DNA of 7,167 nt from Geoglobus sp. GTDB taxonomy: Archaea > Halobacteriota > Archaeoglobi > Archaeoglobales > Archaeoglobaceae. Of the stretch, positions 1-7,167 are shown piece after piece. The notes under the pieces are model-generated. The model did not search any database. It was given only the letters and a program-made list of their open reading frames with translations, and was not told where the DNA came from. The stretch lies in assembly GCA_027016965.1 (NCBI GenBank), contig JALURI010000270.1:1-7167 (forward strand), in the 5' to 3' direction. The position numbers were made by a program, and so were the translations under genes. Numbering within the stretch: the stretch's first letter is position 1; each line of letters opens with the position of its first letter.

Positions 1-284
1 GAGAAGAATACAATGTGTATCTCGTTTCGAGAATGTGGACGTTTATCCCAAACCAGATCACGGTTCCCAAAGATGCCAGGATCAATTTCTACATCACAAG
101 TCCTGATGTGGTTCATGGATTTCATATTGTTGGGACAAGTGTTCAAACCATGGTTATCCCCGGTTATGTTACGGTCATTTCTGCAAGGTTCGGTGAAGCA
201 GGAGAGTACTGGATAATATGCAATGAATACTGCGGTCAGGGACACCACATGATGAAGGCAAAACTGATTGTTAAGGAGGTGTGA
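1..284 (+). CDS. cbaB: Heme-copper (cytochrome c) oxidase subunit II, CuA domain, 5'-truncated
   Basis: Partial gene. The reading frame is already open at base 3 and continues off the left edge, so the GTG at 15 and ATG at 13 are not real starts. What remains is the C-terminal cupredoxin domain that binds the binuclear CuA centre, which accepts electrons outside the membrane from a cytochrome c or blue copper protein and passes them to subunit I. Visible ligands are the His of SPDVVHGFH (bases 114-116) and the CNEYCGQGHHMM segment: Cys at 219-221 and 231-233, His at 243-245 and Met at 252-254. The layout resembles the Thermus ba3 subunit II, which is short and has one N-terminal anchor helix; that helix would lie upstream here. 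An extra His directly follows the CuA His. The stop codon is 2 bases before the subunit I ATG. The family call is secure; ba3-type is inferred from resemblance and from the neighbouring subunit I. Confidence 0.93.
   Translation, partial: EEYNVYLVSRMWTFIPNQITVPKDARINFYITSPDVVHGFHIVGTSVQTMVIPGYVTVISARFGEAGEYWIICNEYCGQGHHMMKAKLIVKEV
275..279 (+). promoter_or_regulatory. Shine-Dalgarno site deciding the subunit I start
   Basis: GGAGG (within AAGGAGGTG, 273-281) lies inside the last codons of subunit II. It is 7 bases from the ATG at 287 but only 1 base from the in-frame GTG at 281. Normal spacing therefore favours ATG 287 as the true start of subunit I. Confidence 0.7.
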
Positions 285-286
285 AA

Positions 287-1894
287 ATGAGGAATGATGC
301 CTTTTACATGAAGCTTGGTCTTTCAATCTCATTACTGTCTGTAGGTCTTGGAGCCGTGTTTGGTTTTCTTCAGGTCTGGGAAAGGGTACCCGGAATTAAT
401 ATTATTAAGCCAGAAACCTATTATCTTGCCCTAACAGGACACGGAGTTCTGATGGCTCTTGTCTTCACAACATTCTTTATAATGCCTCTCGGGATCTTTG
501 TTATCAACAGATCTCTCAGATTGAACACATCACCAACTCTGAATCTCCTCGGATTTGGTTTCGCCACACTTGGGACAGCAATGGCTGCACTTACAATTCT
601 TCTCGGCAAGGCAAATGTTCTCTACACCTTTTACCCTCCAATGAAAGCACATCCAGCTTTCTATCTTGGCGCAACCCTTCTCATTGTTGGAACATGGATA
701 TATACCGCCAACATACTTCTGACAGTCAGAAAATGGAGGAGGACTGGTAACGAGGGCAAAAAACTACCTCTTGACGTCTTTGGTCTGGTTGCCACACTGC
801 TCATATGGATTCTCGCCACAGTTGGAGTTGCTGCTGAGGCTCTCTTTCTCCTCATCCCATGGTCTCTCGGCATTTCTCAGCGAATAGATCCGCTTCTTGC
901 AAGAGATCTCTTCTGGTATTTCGGTCACCCTCTGGTCTATTTCTGGCTCCTTCCAGCCTACATTGTCTGGTACACATTCATTCCAAGGCTGTTAAATGTC
1001 AGAATATTCAGTGATACTCTTGCAAGGGTCGTCTTCGCCCTATTCATTCTATTCTCAACTCCAGTCGGATTCCATCACCAGTTCATGGACCCTGGCATAG
1101 AGGCTGGATGGAAGTATCTTCATACAATCACAACCTATGCAGTGTTCATACCGAGTCTCATGACTGCCTTCACAGTAACAGCAACCATGGAGATGGGAGC
1201 CAGATTGAGAGGAGGAAATGGACTTTTCAGCTGGATGCTGAAACTACCATGGAAAAATCCTCTGTTTTCCGCCATAGCCCTGTCAATGATACTCTTTGCT
1301 TTTGGAGGAGCTTCAGGAGCTGTTAACGCAGGTTACAATCTGAATTATGTTATTCACAACACTGCTTGGGTTCCCGGACACTTTCACCTCACGGTTGGTT
1401 CTGCAGTGACTCTGACATTTATGGGCGTAGCATACATTCTTGTTCCGAGGGTGTTTGGTAAGAGACCGTTCAGTGAGAAACTCGCTCTGATACAAATATA
1501 CTCTTGGTTTGTCGGAGTAACGGTATTTTCGTCTTCAATGATGTACATTGGAATTCTTGGATCGCCCAGAAGGACATATGATGTAACCTATTCTCCCGAT
1601 CTCATTTCTCAGTGGTCACCCTACCTTCTTGCCACAGCCATAGGTGGAACAGTCATGCTTGTCAGCATCCTGATGTTCCTGTATGTCATCCTAAGAACAC
1701 TGCTTTCAAAAGAAGTTGTTAGCTATGAGGAGGAATGGGAAAGCACTGATCCTGGAAATCCCGGATTGGTTGACAATCTGCGACTGTTTTTTGCGATCGC
1801 CATCCTGATAATACTTGTTGCCTACGTCCTTCCAACGCTGAACATAATCAGGATGGGATCACCTGGAGCACCACCGGTTCTGCCAACGATATGA
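287..1894 (+). CDS. cbaA: Heme-copper oxidase subunit I, B-type (ba3-like)
   Basis: Catalytic subunit of a terminal oxidase that reduces O2 to water at a high-spin heme/CuB centre and pumps protons across the cytoplasmic membrane. It has 535 residues from ATG 287 and about 13 hydrophobic helices. Ligands are visible in order: His52 in TGHGVL (low-spin heme), His214 and Tyr218 in FGHPLVY (CuB and the cross-linked Tyr), His263-His264 in GFHHQF (CuB), and His365/His367 in VPGHFHL (high-spin and low-spin hemes). The runs STPVGFHHQF, PSLMTAFTV and VIHNTAWVPGHFHL closely resemble the Thermus ba3 enzyme as I recall it, which supports B-type over A-type. Nitric oxide reductases share the six His, but the retained Tyr next to the CuB His argues for an oxidase. 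The start is chosen by the upstream GGAGG; GTG 281 would add two residues. The stop overlaps the next gene by 4 bases (ATGA), so coupled translation is likely. No residue appears to be missing. Confidence 0.96.
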   Translation: MRNDAFYMKLGLSISLLSVGLGAVFGFLQVWERVPGINIIKPETYYLALTGHGVLMALVFTTFFIMPLGIFVINRSLRLNTSPTLNLLGFGFATLGTAMAALTILLGKANVLYTFYPPMKAHPAFYLGATLLIVGTWIYTANILLTVRKWRRTGNEGKKLPLDVFGLVATLLIWILATVGVAAEALFLLIPWSLGISQRIDPLLARDLFWYFGHPLVYFWLLPAYIVWYTFIPRLLNVRIFSDTLARVVFALFILFSTPVGFHHQFMDPGIEAGWKYLHTITTYAVFIPSLMTAFTVTATMEMGARLRGGNGLFSWMLKLPWKNPLFSAIALSMILFAFGGASGAVNAGYNLNYVIHNTAWVPGHFHLTVGSAVTLTFMGVAYILVPRVFGKRPFSEKLALIQIYSWFVGVTVFSSSMMYIGILGSPRRTYDVTYSPDLISQWSPYLLATAIGGTVMLVSILMFLYVILRTLLSKEVVSYEEEWESTDPGNPGLVDNLRLFFAIAILIILVAYVLPTLNIIRMGSPGAPPVLPTI

Positions 1895-2739
1895 CTGCCA
1901 TGAGACAATTAATTCAAATTTTTAAACTTAAAATTGTATTTCTTTTACTTTTTGTTGCGGGGGCATCTTACCTTATTGCCAGCAGGGATACATTCAGAAT
2001 TGACATCCTAATTCTGCTTGTTGTCTCCGGATTTCTCTCTGCTTCCGGTTCCTCGGCTTTAAACAATTACTGGGATAGAGATATTGACAGAATCATGAGA
2101 AGGACGAGTTCCAGACCTCTGCCGGCAGGAGAAATAAATCCCAGATCTGTGCTTTTAATGGGCAGTCTAATGATAATTTCTGGACTTCTGCTTGCAGCAT
2201 GGATAAATCTTATTACGGCACTCTTTGTATTTACGGGCACACTGATATACAGCTGGGTTTACACCGTCATGCTGAAAAGAAGAACAGCTCTTAACATTGT
2301 GATAGGTGGTTTTGCAGGTAGCTGTTCAGTTCTTGCAGGATTTTCAGCGGCGAGTGAATACATGAACATCCAGGGAATTCTGCTCTCACTGCTTATTTTT
2401 CTCTGGACACCCTCTCACTTCTGGAGTTTTGCATTAATGCACAGGGATGACTACAGAAGAGCCAGAATTCCGATGCTTCCTGCAGTGATGAATGAGTTTG
2501 AGTCCAGAAAGTACACAGCTGTCAGCACATTCCTGCTTTTGGTCTTCTCTCTTGTAATTTATCTGTCTGGTTTTGGACTTCTTTATCTCATTATCTCAGT
2601 CTTAGCGGGTCTTTTCATGAGCTATCTTGCTTTAAATGTTCTGAAAACAGGAGAACACGTGAAAGCCCTTTACAAATTTTCAGGAATGTATATCGGGATT
2701 CTTTTTTTCGGAGCATTAATCGATTCACTTATTTTTTAG
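1891..2739 (+). CDS. ctaB: Protoheme IX farnesyltransferase (heme O synthase)
   Basis: Integral membrane prenyltransferase of the UbiA superfamily. It adds a farnesyl (or longer isoprenoid) group to the vinyl side chain of protoheme IX to give heme O, the precursor of heme A, for the oxidase encoded just upstream. It has 282 residues, a normal family length, with about eight or nine hydrophobic segments. The first Asp-rich motif is N58-x3-D62-x3-D66 within ALNNYWDRDID, followed by RRTSSRPLP. Next come KRRTALNIVIGGFAG (129-143) and WTPSHFW (172-178), then the D186-D187-Y188...IPMLP second motif. Two usually conserved prolines differ: WTPSHFW instead of WTPPHFW, and SVLAG where PPLIG-like text is usual. 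The ATG overlaps the subunit I stop (ATGA) with no clear Shine-Dalgarno site; ATG 1900 is an alternative start three codons in. No ctaA/cox15 gene for heme A is present in the window. Confidence 0.94.
   Translation: MTAMRQLIQIFKLKIVFLLLFVAGASYLIASRDTFRIDILILLVVSGFLSASGSSALNNYWDRDIDRIMRRTSSRPLPAGEINPRSVLLMGSLMIISGLLLAAWINLITALFVFTGTLIYSWVYTVMLKRRTALNIVIGGFAGSCSVLAGFSAASEYMNIQGILLSLLIFLWTPSHFWSFALMHRDDYRRARIPMLPAVMNEFESRKYTAVSTFLLLVFSLVIYLSGFGLLYLIISVLAGLFMSYLALNVLKTGEHVKALYKFSGMYIGILFFGALIDSLIF
2702..2737 (+). terminator. T-run termination region at the end of the oxidase operon
   Basis: Two T-runs, T7 at 2702-2708 and T6 at 2732-2737, lie within the last codons of ctaB and at its stop. Archaeal RNA polymerase commonly releases at oligo-U without a hairpin, and the next operon has its own promoter just downstream. 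This is inference from T-content; no stem-loop was seen. Confidence 0.4.
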
Positions 2740-3096: not shown

Positions 3097-4250
3097 TGTT
3101 CCTTGTTGTCAGAGATGGGGATATAAAGGCCGGAATTGCAACTGACAAGTATTTTATATGGACTGAAAAAATTCTGAAAGAGAAGGGGGTTAACCCTTAT
3201 GTTATCGCTGAATTCACAGCATCGAGGTGGGGTATATTCTCAGGCTTGAATGATGTTTTAAGGTTGATGGAAGGCAGAGAGGTTGATATTTATGGGATGC
3301 CTGAAGGCACACTTTTCTTTCCCCATGAGCCTGTGATGGTTGTTGCTGGAAAATACCTTGAGTTTGCCAGGTTTGAAACAGCAATACTCGGATTCATATG
3401 CCACTCCTCAGGTATCTCAACAAAAGCCTTCAGAGCAAAGCTTGCTGCTGGAGAGAAACGAATACTGTCCTTCGGGACGAGAAGACAACATCCTGCTCTT
3501 GCTGCAATGATTGAGAGGGCTGCGTGGATTGCAGGTGTTGATGGTGTCAGCAATTACGCTGCTGAGAAATATCTTGGAATTGAAAGCCTTGGAACAATGC
3601 CTCACGCTCTGATAATCTCATTTGGGGATCAGGTAAAAGCTTGGAAAGCCTATCATGAGGTTGTTGATGAAAATGTGCCAAGAACCATGCTTGTTGATAC
3701 TTACTGCGATGAGAAAACTGAAGCAATCAGGGCTGTTGAGAATGTTGAGAGAGTTGATGCTGTAAGACTTGATACTCCAGGCAGCAGGAGGGGTGACATA
3801 AGGAAGATAATTGAGGAAATCAGATGGGAGCTTAAGATAAGAGGAAAGGAAAATGTCAGAATAGTCCTTAGCGGTGGAGTGGACATAGGAGATATTTACA
3901 GCTTAAGAGATACTGTTGACTCGTTTGGGGTTGGTACAAGCATAGCTGGAGCAGGCCCGATAGACTTCTCTATGGATATTGTAGAGAGAGAAGGAGAGTT
4001 TTGCGCTAAGAGAGGGAAGAGGGGTGGATTGAAACAGGTTTACAGAGACTGGGAAAAGCTTGAGGATGAAATGAGACTTTTTAGAGACAGAACTCCAGAA
4101 GGAATGGAGCCGCTTTTGAAAAAATACATGGAGTCTGGCAGGATTGTTCAGGAGACGGATATGGAAGAGTCAAGGAGAATAGCCATAAGACAGATGGAAA
4201 TAATCAGGAAGATCGGTAGAGAGGAGGACTTCATTTTTGATAGGGTCTGA
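3096..4250 (+). CDS. pncB: Nicotinate phosphoribosyltransferase
   Basis: Cytoplasmic enzyme of the Preiss-Handler NAD salvage route. It joins nicotinate to PRPP to give nicotinate mononucleotide and PPi, with ATP hydrolysis. It has 384 residues, matching the short archaeal form. Family signatures are seen in order: FGTRRQHPA (126-134), GTMPH with His170 (the GTxxH motif; probably the region of the phosphorylated His known from bacterial enzymes), VDTYCDE (200-206), RLDTPGSRRGD (224-234), LSGGVD (258-263) and GVGTSIAGAGPIDF (278-291), the phosphate-binding barrel segment. The C-terminal about 70 residues are charged and helical. Only three Cys occur in the whole protein, so there is no zinc knuckle like the one I recall for the Thermoplasma enzyme. 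GTG 3093 is an alternative start. It overlaps the mazG-like stop by one base. Its own stop is one base from the convergent permease stop. Nicotinamide phosphoribosyltransferase is unlikely given the length and motifs. Confidence 0.9.
   Translation: MFLVVRDGDIKAGIATDKYFIWTEKILKEKGVNPYVIAEFTASRWGIFSGLNDVLRLMEGREVDIYGMPEGTLFFPHEPVMVVAGKYLEFARFETAILGFICHSSGISTKAFRAKLAAGEKRILSFGTRRQHPALAAMIERAAWIAGVDGVSNYAAEKYLGIESLGTMPHALIISFGDQVKAWKAYHEVVDENVPRTMLVDTYCDEKTEAIRAVENVERVDAVRLDTPGSRRGDIRKIIEEIRWELKIRGKENVRIVLSGGVDIGDIYSLRDTVDSFGVGTSIAGAGPIDFSMDIVEREGEFCAKRGKRGGLKQVYRDWEKLEDEMRLFRDRTPEGMEPLLKKYMESGRIVQETDMEESRRIAIRQMEIIRKIGREEDFIFDRV
4119..4124 (-). terminator. Possible oligo-U terminator for the permease operon
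   Basis: A6 on the plus strand reads T6 on the minus strand, about 130 bases past the permease stop and inside the pncB coding sequence. It is the first clear T-run I noticed downstream of the permeases. No hairpin is visible, so support is weak. Confidence 0.2.
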
Positions 4251-4251
4251 T

Positions 4252-5283
4252 CTATTCAATCATTTCCCGCTTTTTTGAGAGAAAAACAGCAAGAATAAGT
4301 AAAGAAGCTCCAAGAAATGGGTATGCAAGGAATTCCATGGATGTGAAATAGCTTCCAGCAGAAATTCTCCCTGCAATACCTGCTATCATTGATCTGGAGG
4401 TAAAAGATGCTGTTACAACTGAAACAGATATAATTGAGAACACAAGCTGACTTCTTTCTCTGTCTTTGAAAACGAGAGATGATATTGAACCCAGAGAGGA
4501 GAATATCATCGAGACAGAAACTGAAAGAATCAGGATCATGGCAGGATTATTAATTCCCACGTTGATGTAAACAAGAGCTATCCAGATAACAGACAGAATT
4601 GTTGAAATCAGCAGAGAAACAAAGATCTTTGACGAGATGAATTCAGAACTGCTCAGTGGAGTTGAGAGAATCACCTCATATGTTTTTGTCTCGTACTCCT
4701 CGCTCATCAGATCAATTACAAGCCCACCGGAAATTATGGCTGTCGTTATGATCAGGAGGGGAATTAGAACTGCATAGATAAATCTGAAAGTGATGGATGA
4801 CCCTTCCTGTATTTCGGTTCTTCCAAAATCTGTATCATAAAATTCAAATCCGTGGTCTGAGGGGATACCGTTCATTTCTCTGAGTCTCTTCTGGTATTCT
4901 TTGAGTATCTCTTTAATCCTGGATGATGCTATAATTCCTGTTATCTCATCCTCTGGGAGATAAACTGTTACGAAATTAATGGAGGATACGTTCTCCTTTG
5001 GTAAATATATCAGGGCATCTATCTTCCCGCTATAAAAATCATTCAACCCCTCTTCCAGGCTCTGGTATCTCACATCTGCTCCTGACATTTGGAGAACAGG
5101 ACAGTTACCTGCAACTCCAATCTTAACTCCTGAAAGAGCTATGAAATCTGGCTTGTAGAGCACGAGAAGTCCAAATGTGATTATAGACGAAAACGAGGCG
5201 ATGAAGATAAGGATTGTTATTGCTGACATTATCGTTCTTTCCCTCGCTATCATTTTCAGATCCTTCATTATCATTGCCTTCAT
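4252..5283 (-). CDS. ABC-2 type transporter permease (NatB-like)
   Basis: Membrane subunit of an ABC exporter, 343 residues. Layout: one N-terminal helix (about 18-43); an extracytoplasmic domain (about 44-165) with the family pattern of a short Rossmann-like start (VKIGVAGN, 53-60) and the segment SLEEGLNDFYSGKIDALIYLP (split here at 75-85 and 86-95); then about five helices (166-190, 216-241, 247-270, 279-298, 318-335). The cytoplasmic loop after the second helix has SEEYETKTYEVILSTPLS (194-211), the coupling-type sequence typical of these permeases. The ectodomain and loop parallel those of the upstream permease, so the two probably form a heterodimer with the ATPase at 6979. ATG 5283 overlaps the upstream stop (ATGA), with GGTGA 7 bases before it; internal ATGs at codons 4 and 6 are weaker. 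The substrate is unknown: Na+, peptide and drug export are all compatible. The stop is one base from the pncB stop on the other strand. Confidence 0.85.
   Translation of the reverse strand: MKAMIMKDLKMIARERTIMSAITILIFIASFSSIITFGLLVLYKPDFIALSGVKIGVAGNCPVLQMSGADVRYQSLEEGLNDFYSGKIDALIYLPKENVSSINFVTVYLPEDEITGIIASSRIKEILKEYQKRLREMNGIPSDHGFEFYDTDFGRTEIQEGSSITFRFIYAVLIPLLIITTAIISGGLVIDLMSEEYETKTYEVILSTPLSSSEFISSKIFVSLLISTILSVIWIALVYINVGINNPAMILILSVSVSMIFSSLGSISSLVFKDRERSQLVFSIISVSVVTASFTSRSMIAGIAGRISAGSYFTSMEFLAYPFLGASLLILAVFLSKKREMIE
4271..4276 (+). terminator. Oligo-T terminator for the mazG-like/pncB operon
   Basis: T6 begins 21 bases after the pncB stop, inside the 3' end of the convergent permease gene, where it encodes a Lys-Lys pair on the minus strand. 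There is no free intergenic space, so any signal must lie in the opposing gene. The role is inferred from T-run position only. Confidence 0.4.
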
Positions 5284-6929
5284 ATCCCGCTCACCGCCAT
5301 GAAGTTGTATGCAAAATGAATGGCAACTGCGGCAATGTATCCAGCCCTCCAGTCCTTTCTTGCTATAATTGCAAAGATGGATGAGGCGGTGAGGTGAAGC
5401 AGAAATGGAAATAGCAGAAACTGTCCTGGCAAGACTATGCTGTAATCGCTGAAAACTTTGGCAAAAAGAAGTGACTTCTCAGCCAAGAAAAATCCTGATG
5501 CAACAGCAAAAGCTCTTCGGACTGTTTTTACAGGATAAATTAAAAGTGATTTGAAGAACTCCTCTATTATTGCAACTCCAAGCATCAGTACGACAAACGA
5601 AGGCAGTAATGGCACGGAAAGGCTGAAGAATATGAGGAAAAATTCAAAGAAAAATGAAAAGAAAACCGTCATACCTGCAAGAACAAATGAGATAAAATCA
5701 TTCTTTGCGGAAGAAGACATGGCGTCTGCAAATTTTTTGAAGGGGGAGCGATAGCTCTGAATGCTCTCTATGGTCATGGATTCAGAACTTAAGTAAATAA
5801 AGGTCAGACCCATGAAAATAAGTGGAATTGAACTTATCAGAAAATCGACCAAAGAAAATTCGTCATTTGCCAGATCTCTCAGCAGAAACGTTACGGGTGA
5901 GATATCTGATAGGGGAAGCCCTGAAAAAATTGATGGAATCACAAGATAAACAAGAACAAGCAGGTTCGTAACAAGAATTAGGAAAGTAAGCTCCCTGTAG
6001 GACCTCGAATTGATTGCAATGAATGCCTGAGCTGAAAATAGCAGGATAAGGGCTGGAAAAATGTAAACAATACCTGCCGATGAAAAAATTGCAGATGGAA
6101 TCAGTGCAAAGATTATGGAGAGGGTAAAGTAGGGAAGCATTTTCTGGAAAAGGTAATTTGTGTTTCCAATGGGTGATGCAAGAAGAATTTCAATTCTTTT
6201 TAGCCTCATGTCTTCTGCAAGTGAAGAGGAGAAGAGCTGCATTGCAAAGAAAGAGGGTATTAGGAAGAGAAATGCCTGAACCATTTTTGATATCAGTGAT
6301 GGTGGAGAAAAGCTATCGGGGGTGTAGAATTCTACTTTCTCCCTTTTTAACCCGACAACCTCTTCTCCAGATGATCTCTGCTGGATAGTTTCTTTTATGA
6401 CCTCCTCTCTCTTTTCTGGTTCAATTTTTTCTTTTGATGGTGTTTTTTCTTCAATTTCTCTGATCTTTTCAACAGAAATTGGTTTTGGTGTAAATTCAGG
6501 CTGTATCTCTCTTTTCAAATACTCAGCCTTTATCAAAACCGGAAATGCTTTTTCACCGTAGTTATCGTAAAGCCATCTTGAGAACTCCGTTTCTATAAAT
6601 CTCCCCATCTCTTCTCCGGCAGATATGGACTTCAGATTATTTCTGACAAAAACCCTACTATCTGTTATAAAAACATCAATCTCACCTTTTTTTAGCAGTT
6701 CAATACCGTCATCAAAGTTCTCGACTGTATAATGCTGAAATAGTCTGTTCTGGATTATGTACTGATCGCTTGCTGACATGTATATTCCAGAATCTGAAGA
6801 AAAGCCGTGAGAAAAAGATACATAGGATACAAATACTGTTCCAATGCTCAGAATCAGAATAAAAGCTCTGAATCTCCCAGTCATTCTCCTGCCAGATTTT
6901 TTCAGTTCAGCCTTCAGAAGTGGTAACAC
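5280..6929 (-). CDS. ABC-2 permease fused to a C-terminal PrsW-like intramembrane protease domain
   Basis: 549 residues from GTG 6929. The frame stays open further upstream, but that part is antisense to the ATPase gene. GTG 6929 lies about 25 bp after a TATA box and matches the leaderless pattern; ATG 6884 is the alternative start. N-terminal part: basic start (LLKAELKKSGRRMTGRFR, 4-21), helix 22-38, ectodomain with a FDDGIELLKKGEIDVFI segment (72-88), then a Glu/Lys-rich stretch (about 141-200) of low complexity. Next come helices near 214-234, 268-288, 290-308, 315-336 and 361-381, with the loop RIEILLASPIG (245-255) typical of ABC-2 permeases. C-terminal part (about 412-549): hydrophobic, with E456-E457-x2-K460, then E484, H512 and H538-FAY-N542. 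This is the ordered EExxK, Glu, His, HxxxN pattern of PrsW (family M82), but with Lys where an Asn usually follows the second motif's Glu. It could be a working protease or a degenerate domain. It overlaps the second permease by ATGA. Confidence 0.8.
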   Translation of the reverse strand: MLPLLKAELKKSGRRMTGRFRAFILILSIGTVFVSYVSFSHGFSSDSGIYMSASDQYIIQNRLFQHYTVENFDDGIELLKKGEIDVFITDSRVFVRNNLKSISAGEEMGRFIETEFSRWLYDNYGEKAFPVLIKAEYLKREIQPEFTPKPISVEKIREIEEKTPSKEKIEPEKREEVIKETIQQRSSGEEVVGLKREKVEFYTPDSFSPPSLISKMVQAFLFLIPSFFAMQLFSSSLAEDMRLKRIEILLASPIGNTNYLFQKMLPYFTLSIIFALIPSAIFSSAGIVYIFPALILLFSAQAFIAINSRSYRELTFLILVTNLLVLVYLVIPSIFSGLPLSDISPVTFLLRDLANDEFSLVDFLISSIPLIFMGLTFIYLSSESMTIESIQSYRSPFKKFADAMSSSAKNDFISFVLAGMTVFFSFFFEFFLIFFSLSVPLLPSFVVLMLGVAIIEEFFKSLLIYPVKTVRRAFAVASGFFLAEKSLLFAKVFSDYSIVLPGQFLLFPFLLHLTASSIFAIIARKDWRAGYIAAVAIHFAYNFMAVSGI

Positions 6930-6940
6930 AAAATGGCTTT

Positions 6941-6969
6941 TCCAAATCTTAATATATTTCTTTTTTGGA
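6941..6969. repeat. Inverted repeat TCCAAA-N17-TTTGGA around the TATA box
   Basis: Arms at 6941-6946 and 6964-6969 are exact reverse complements. Their midpoint (6955) coincides with the centre of the AATATATT palindrome (6954.5). Arm centres are 23 bp apart, about two helical turns, as expected for a dimeric regulator. Bound protein would cover the TATA box and both flanking recognition elements and so repress both directions. Operator function is inferred. Confidence 0.4.
6951..6958. promoter_or_regulatory. Palindromic TATA box shared by divergent ATPase and permease genes
   Basis: AATATATT is its own reverse complement. Its centre is 24.5 bp from the ATPase ATG (6979, +) and 25.5 bp from the permease GTG (6929, -), the usual archaeal TATA-to-start-site distance on both sides. 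Neither start has a convincing Shine-Dalgarno site, so both mRNAs would be leaderless. On the minus strand the box is preceded by purine-rich AAAAAAGA, a good TFB recognition element; on the plus strand the preceding CCAAATCT is poorer. The permease direction may therefore be stronger. Confidence 0.6.
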
Positions 6970-6978
6970 CTTGGTCTG

Positions 6979-7167
6979 ATGCTGGAAGTTAGGGGAATAA
7001 AAAAGAGCTTTGGTGAAATTGTTGCGGTGAAGGATGTTTCATTCCAGCTTGAGAGAGGATATATTCTTGGGGTTATTGGTGAGAACGGGGCAGGAAAATC
7101 CACAACTCTCAGGATTATTTCTGGGTTACTCAAGCCTGACAGGGGTGAAGTTCTGTATGAGTCCATG
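6979..7167 (+). CDS. ABC transporter ATP-binding protein, N-terminal part (truncated by window edge)
   Basis: The first 63 codons of a cytoplasmic ABC ATPase run off the right edge. They read as a canonical start (MLEVRGIKKSFGEIVAVKDVSFQL) with the Walker A P-loop GENGAGKST at residues 35-43 and the following TLRIISGLLKPDRGEV, typical of the class that partners ABC-2 permeases (NatA/CcmA-like). Signature, Walker B and switch His lie beyond the window. ATG 6979 is the first start after the TATA box, no in-frame start lies closer, and no Shine-Dalgarno site is seen, so the mRNA is probably leaderless. It is transcribed away from the two permease genes, with a 49-bp gap, rather than co-transcribed with them as is usual. 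Assignment as their partner is inferred from adjacency and family. Confidence 0.92.
   Translation, partial: MLEVRGIKKSFGEIVAVKDVSFQLERGYILGVIGENGAGKSTTLRIISGLLKPDRGEVLYESM

Follow-up and report, generated by a model that had tools for sequence, protein, structure and literature searches.

An archaeal ABC-2 permease with a C-terminal PrsW-like domain

In a 7,167-nt stretch of DNA from Geoglobus sp. (contig JALURI010000270.1 of assembly GCA_027016965.1, here called the window), we analyzed a gene whose product joins an ATP-binding cassette (ABC) permease of the ABC-2 type to a C-terminal PrsW-like domain. We conclude, with near certainty, that this C-terminal domain is of the PrsW type and sits on an ABC-2 permease. 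The fusion is a divergent PrsW-like clade on an exporter permease, and an analogous family of permease-CPBP proteins, NF041647, already exists in NCBIfam. An earlier note on this DNA had proposed the fusion and located the gene at 5280..6929; these coordinates were borne out (minus strand, 549 residues), the motif residues that it named (E456, E457, K460, E484, K485, H512, H538, and N542) were confirmed in the translation, and the proposal itself is supported by a profile match, by the relatives, and by the permease fold.

Identity of the C-terminal domain

A profile of the C-terminal domain built from 45 relatives matched 26 canonical archaeal PrsW domains (L057 was left out of this set because stops occurred within its coordinates) at 97.0% with an E value of 1e-10 over 128 columns, with EExxK, the second Glu, the His, and HxxxN all in register. 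A profile from the 19 Geoglobus-type sequences only gave 94.4% (E 8.8e-8). Among the controls, ten column-shuffled profiles reached 0.1-0.7% and one reversed profile 0.2% (best E among these eleven, 0.086), the permease core of the fusion and its partner permease matched PrsW at 0.7% and 0.1%, respectively, and the PrsW-like domain matched the fusion's own permease core at 1.1%.

Pfam searches placed the same family on the fused gene. Scanned alone, the protein of the window matched PF13367 (PrsW) as the sole family, at 17.5 bits and E 0.0032. When 60 genomes of the phylum were searched in all six frames, PF13367 matches located within fused genes exceeded the cut-off for 7 of the 24 genomes with a strong fusion match (G091, 33.2 bits; G079, 27.7; G060, 26.3; G098, 25.9; G065, 24.3; G087, 23.5; and G010, 25.2 with neighbors in frame included); G084 remained below it at 22.0 bits, and the count leaves aside a 26.1-bit match in G107, which may lie elsewhere than in the fused gene. 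Upon scanning individual relatives, sub-threshold PrsW matches were obtained for P0003, P0017, and P0019 in the first ten, with none over the cut-off, while in the second ten (listed to E 0.01) P0033 passed at 28.6 bits, with both of its halves recognized by Pfam, and the other nine had no listed PrsW match.

The motif residues are strongly conserved. Our alignment comprised 172 rows, corresponding to 170 distinct relatives (two duplicate pairs) and to 27 representatives when the C-terminal columns are clustered at 70% identity; it restored all but P0002 of the eight near-duplicate or incomplete proteins omitted from the 45-row alignment. E456, E457, K460, F480, E484, and K485 are invariant in all 170 relatives, and P508, H512, H538, and Y541 are present in 169, the exception being P0022, the C-terminus of which ends early. 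Position 542 is Asn in 164 relatives, Asp in 5, and a gap in 1. Over the whole protein, 38 of the 549 columns are at least 98% conserved, of which 11 lie in the PrsW-like domain and the rest mostly in the permease core, indicating that both halves are kept. The ratio of nonsynonymous to synonymous substitution rates of the domain was low, at about 0.06, 0.14, and 0.16 against three relatives, with synonymous sites near saturation.

The predicted structure agrees with this assignment. The domain model (predicted local distance difference test, pLDDT, 91.0; predicted template modeling score 0.86) carries the four motifs on four successive helices, one per helix, which is the layout described for PrsW, where EExxK, the Glu, and both His residues form the proposed active site (PMC4602095). 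Judged by its residues, the domain is built like a membrane-embedded protease that retains its putative active-site residues. Like the PrsW family proper (PF13367, including the site-1 protease of RsiW in B. subtilis), the fusion has EExxK, a Glu in the next helix, a His, and HxxxN/D on successive helices; it differs in that its domain is shorter, is C-terminal on an ABC-2 permease, and has Glu-Lys in place of the usual Glu-Asn. A PDB sequence search with alignment A3 returned nothing at E ≤ 1, and no Foldseek match was obtained at E ≤ 0.001 for either the full-length model (pLDDT 69.6) or the domain alone.

A CPBP identity was set aside in favor of PrsW on the basis of H512, the profile comparison, and Pfam. 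The His in the following helix is a PrsW feature that has no counterpart in type II CAAX proteases (PMC4602095). The domain matched seven CPBP sequences at 0.4% (from a set of nine for PF02517, with L087 and L088 omitted as incomplete matches), but canonical PrsW matched the same set at just 0.7%, so this comparison is blind to the superfamily link; it places PrsW nearer and says nothing against kinship to CPBP. Rce1 was absent from the listed fold matches of both the domain and the full model, which excludes nothing, as the list follows Foldseek's own ranking.

Exporter partners, distribution, and related systems

The permease identity of the fusion is supported by its fold match, by the profile match to the partner permease, and by its relatives, of which P0024 (33.7 bits), P0031 (33.1 bits), and L024 (33.7 bits) pass the PF12698 cut-off of 31.6. 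In all 30 loci L003-L032 and in the Geoglobus window, the partner permease gene is the next gene downstream, in the same orientation. This also holds for 20 of 20 longer regions, of which eleven come from genomes of the first set, and in the loci examined the ends of the two genes mostly overlap. As the partner permease is homologous to the fusion's permease core (92%, E 6.6e-7 in the profile comparison), the pair corresponds to a heterodimeric exporter with a protease domain on one half only.

An ATPase gene adjoins the fusion in 24 of the 30 loci, divergently in 18 and upstream in the same direction in 6. Whole-genome searches of G002, G005, G007, and G004, where no ATPase adjoins the fusion locus, found a 56-59% identical ATPase elsewhere; the next-best ATPase in G002 and G005 was at 41%, and the best match in G079 was at 45%. 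From loci L066 and L069 the ATPase is gone, and a 57-59% identical ATPase remains elsewhere in the genome. The ABC signature of the ATPases of L062, L065, L068, L074, L078, and L080 reads FSKGM, LSKGM, or MSKGM, not LSGGQ.

The fusion is an old and widespread archaeal family in Halobacteriota rather than a local one. It occurs in 37 of the 57 genomes of the order Archaeoglobales, and all 37 best matches extend to at least profile position 542, in the last helix; the same fusion was recovered in the group for which the earlier note had suggested a survey of homologs, with the motif residues kept. Within the phylum, where at most three candidates per genome were scored, 211 of the 392 sampled genomes matched at E ≤ 0.001, or about 200 after dropping 10 weak matches (E above 1e-7) that are probably other ABC-2 permeases. 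A stand-alone protease domain in G011 (C39) was rejected as a split form of the fusion: HxxxN is absent, and this copy of the locus has decayed. This second copy (L081, G011:C39:8000-18000, at 3964-5287) retains a partial protease domain and a shortened partner permease; no ATPase was found in it, its gene neighborhood is shared with L068 and L070, and an intact copy is present elsewhere in G011.

Database names split the family. Among the matches listed (120 of 1590), NCBI names were shown for 53 rows, 30 of which read as ABC permease and 23 as 'PrsW family intramembrane metalloprotease', so that each name describes half of one family. We found no paper describing an ABC permease-PrsW fusion in the open-access PubMed Central (PMC) literature; a survey of archaeal fusions lists many ABC-2 type composites, and its main text does not mention PrsW (PMC11237513). 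PADLOC returned nothing for the fusion, the partner permease, or P0024 at E ≤ 0.01.

Proteases and transporters are joined in other ways elsewhere. C39-type peptidase-containing ABC transporters hold protease and exporter in one chain, and the peptide is cut and exported; they differ from the fusion in their soluble N-terminal cysteine protease and in their ABC type. An analog by family name, NF041647 (ABC_perm_CPBP, 'ABC transporter permease subunit/CPBP intramembrane protease'), likewise unites an ABC permease and an intramembrane protease in a single chain, but the protease comes from a related superfamily and is of the CPBP and not the PrsW type. The fusion did not match this model at E ≤ 1, the partner permease matched its permease part only (29.9 bits, against a score cut-off of 435), and none of four genomes had a match over the cut-off. 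PrsW is also joined to other domains in polymorphic toxins and in Pyrococcus PH0065, for which a role in export with processing has been proposed; these proteins have no ABC transporter, the PrsW domain being N-terminal and followed by a toxin or a second PrsW-like peptidase (PMC3482391).

A possible coupling of cleavage and export

Exporters of the ABC-2 type transport hydrophobic compounds across the membrane or out of it, and PrsW-type proteases cut membrane proteins near or within it. That the two are kept together across many related archaea suggests that one machine first cuts something within the membrane and then expels it. We therefore propose, as a reading that falls a little short of probable, that the fusion is a subunit of a heterodimeric ABC exporter whose PrsW-like domain cuts and whose ABC-2 channel expels a fragment. 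The complex would consist of the divergently encoded ATPase, the fusion permease, and the partner permease. Its C-terminal glutamic or metallo intramembrane protease domain, with Glu456/457, Glu484, His512, and His538 in the membrane, would cut a membrane-inserted peptide, such as a lipidated peptide, a signal peptide that was left behind, or a helix of a small membrane protein, whereupon the adjoining channel, driven by the ATPase, would eject a fragment. The data establish what the domain is, the invariance of its motif residues, the fold of the permease, and the gene partnership; catalysis, the coupling of cutting to export, the direction of transport, and the kind of substrate are what we infer in this scheme. 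The earlier note had suggested that the transporter processes its own substrate, a partner, or a membrane regulator, which likewise stands as a hypothesis. More tentative still is a broader version, in which a single-chain archaeal 'cut and eject' machine, retained since the ancestor of much of Halobacteriota, would use intramembrane proteolysis and ATP-driven export to clear membrane peptides or to secrete them; lipoprotein signal peptides might be among these.

A precedent exists in Staphylococcus aureus, where the release of fragments of lipoprotein signal peptides depends both on a site-2 protease, Eep, and on an ABC exporter, EcsAB (PMC7157817). In Eep/RasP with EcsAB/PptAB of Gram-positive bacteria, as in our proposal, an intramembrane protease and an ABC exporter act on the same peptides, but as separate proteins, and Eep is a zinc site-2 protease rather than a PrsW (PMC7157817). 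By analogy, the simplest reading of the fusion would be a similar division of labor within one complex. Proteolysis within the membrane gives rise to hydrophobic fragments, the clearance of which is poorly understood. In bacteria, the protease and the ABC exporter seem to be two distinct proteins that work as a pair, while here both occur in one chain that is kept across archaea; as some members belong to genetically tractable haloarchaea, the coupling could be tested by point mutants of a single gene.

Several observations weigh against this proposal or against the assignments on which it builds. PrsW is known as the protease of a regulator and not as an exporter component, and the activity and substrate of the domain are predictions. 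By fold, the domain is matched best by APH-1 and by a chain of the multipass translocon, both of which we take to be non-catalytic. The protein of the window misses the curated gathering cut-off of PF13367 (17.5 versus 23.5 bits), which only 1 of the 21 fused proteins scanned with Pfam passes. The match to PrsW that the earlier note anticipated hence holds at the level of the family (E 1e-10) and not for this protein alone, and the fusion is better classed with a divergent clade of PrsW-like proteins than as a Pfam PrsW member. The same protein has no Pfam ABC-2 match at E ≤ 10. The ATPase gene is not adjacent in 6 of the 30 loci, and no substrate-like neighboring gene is conserved across the 20 regions read. 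Finally, Lys485, although invariant, is not the residue most often found at this position: among the 23 of 26 canonical PrsW sequences that matched the pattern, the residue following the second Glu is Asn in 19, Phe in 2, Asp in 1, and Thr in 1. This departure had been taken as grounds to doubt activity; that doubt is addressed by the presence of Lys in 170 of 170 relatives, and Lys485 is, on the aligned sequences, a mark of the fusion clade.

The domain could instead act as a regulatory site-1 protease, with the transporter sensing or moving a ligand and the domain cutting a membrane-bound regulator, such that sensing would fall to the exporter and cleavage would be the output. We consider this rather unlikely, since no regulator gene is conserved beside the loci in the 20 regions read and, to our knowledge, archaea lack a sigma/anti-sigma system. 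It would stay close to Bacillus PrsW, which cleaves RsiW (PMC4602095), and fusion to a transporter would couple such cleavage to transport.

Another possibility is an APH-1-like scaffold, in which a PrsW fold does not cut and its polar residues serve to join the two halves of the heterodimer or to bind a substrate, as for APH-1 in gamma-secretase. We know of no catalytic role for APH-1, and we take it to lack the EExxK pair. As the best fold match of the domain and a member of the PrsW superfamily (PMC4602095), APH-1 resembles the fusion, but it is a subunit of another protease, outside any transporter. Every intact member of the fusion family keeps EExxK, Glu484, and both His residues, that is, the proposed PrsW active site (PMC4602095), which makes a scaffold unlikely.

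A lipoprotein module that removes or ejects archaeal lipoprotein signal peptides would be a special case of the coupled cutting and export that we favor. We regard it as improbable: nearly half of the sampled phylum is without the module. It leans on the processing of such signal-peptide fragments by Eep/EcsAB in S. aureus (PMC7157817); archaea, for their part, are not known to have a bacterial-type enzyme for lipoprotein processing, a place that the module could fill. That a five- or six-helix extension with polar residues merely looks like PrsW is scarcely credible given the profile-profile E value of 1e-10, the four motifs in register, the clean controls, and the relatives that exceed the Pfam PrsW cut-off.

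Gene layout and other features of the window

Full-length relatives start at the same residue as the 549-residue protein; a longer open reading frame of 628 residues is an upstream extension running into the divergent ATPase gene. The partner permease gene overlaps the fusion gene by 4 bases, and the ATPase of the related locus L062 belongs to PF00005 (117 bits). The closest DNA relative of the window is a contig from a metagenome-assembled genome of Geoglobus sp., with 84% protein identity for the fusion.

Table 1. Features of the fusion locus, in positions of the window
Feature	Position	Strand	Basis or remark
Fusion gene, 549-residue ABC-2 permease with C-terminal PrsW-like domain	5280..6929	-	GTG start 6929, stop codon 5282-5280
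Residues 1-203, first membrane helix (18-41) and extracytoplasmic region	6321..6929	-	Low model confidence
Residues 204-392, ABC-2 permease core, NosY fold	5754..6320	-	Predicted structure
Residues 411-549, PrsW-like five-helix domain	5283..5699	-	Profile comparison, domain model, fold match
EExxK motif, residues 456-460	5550..5564	-	Profile alignment, relatives
Glu484-Lys485, second motif	5475..5480	-	Profile alignment; canonical PrsW mostly Glu-Asn
His512, third motif	5394..5396	-	Profile alignment, relatives
HxxxN motif, residues 538-542	5304..5318	-	Profile alignment, relatives
Partner ABC-2 permease, 343 residues, without protease domain	4252..5283	-	PF12698, 3.6e-18, 66.2 bits
Divergent ABC ATPase gene, 5' part only (runs past the window end)	6979..7167	+	Walker A GENGAGKS
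Divergent intergenic stretch, 49 bases	6930..6978		Sequence only

Midway between the ATPase and fusion starts, 20-30 bases from each, lies a single AT-rich box, TAATATATTT (6950-6959), which, judged by eye, could serve as a shared TATA box for both divergent transcripts. Operon neighbors were considered and rejected as clues to a substrate: genes of the MazG-like kind and for quinolinate phosphoribosyltransferase are shared among Geoglobus-type loci only, and others are confined to sub-clades.

The other end of the window (3-2739, plus strand) carries a heme-copper oxidase set, in which a COX1 gene (PF00115, 323.9 bits) is accompanied by the final part of a COX2 gene and by a gene for a UbiA-type prenyltransferase. 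Known Geoglobus members are anaerobic. A search of the 57 genomes of the order detected close COX1 relatives in just two of them, G030 (92-95%, in part on the fusion-bearing contig) and G031 (83%), while G056 and G057 each gave a weak match. The oxidase set thus appears to have been acquired by a single Geoglobus sub-clade.
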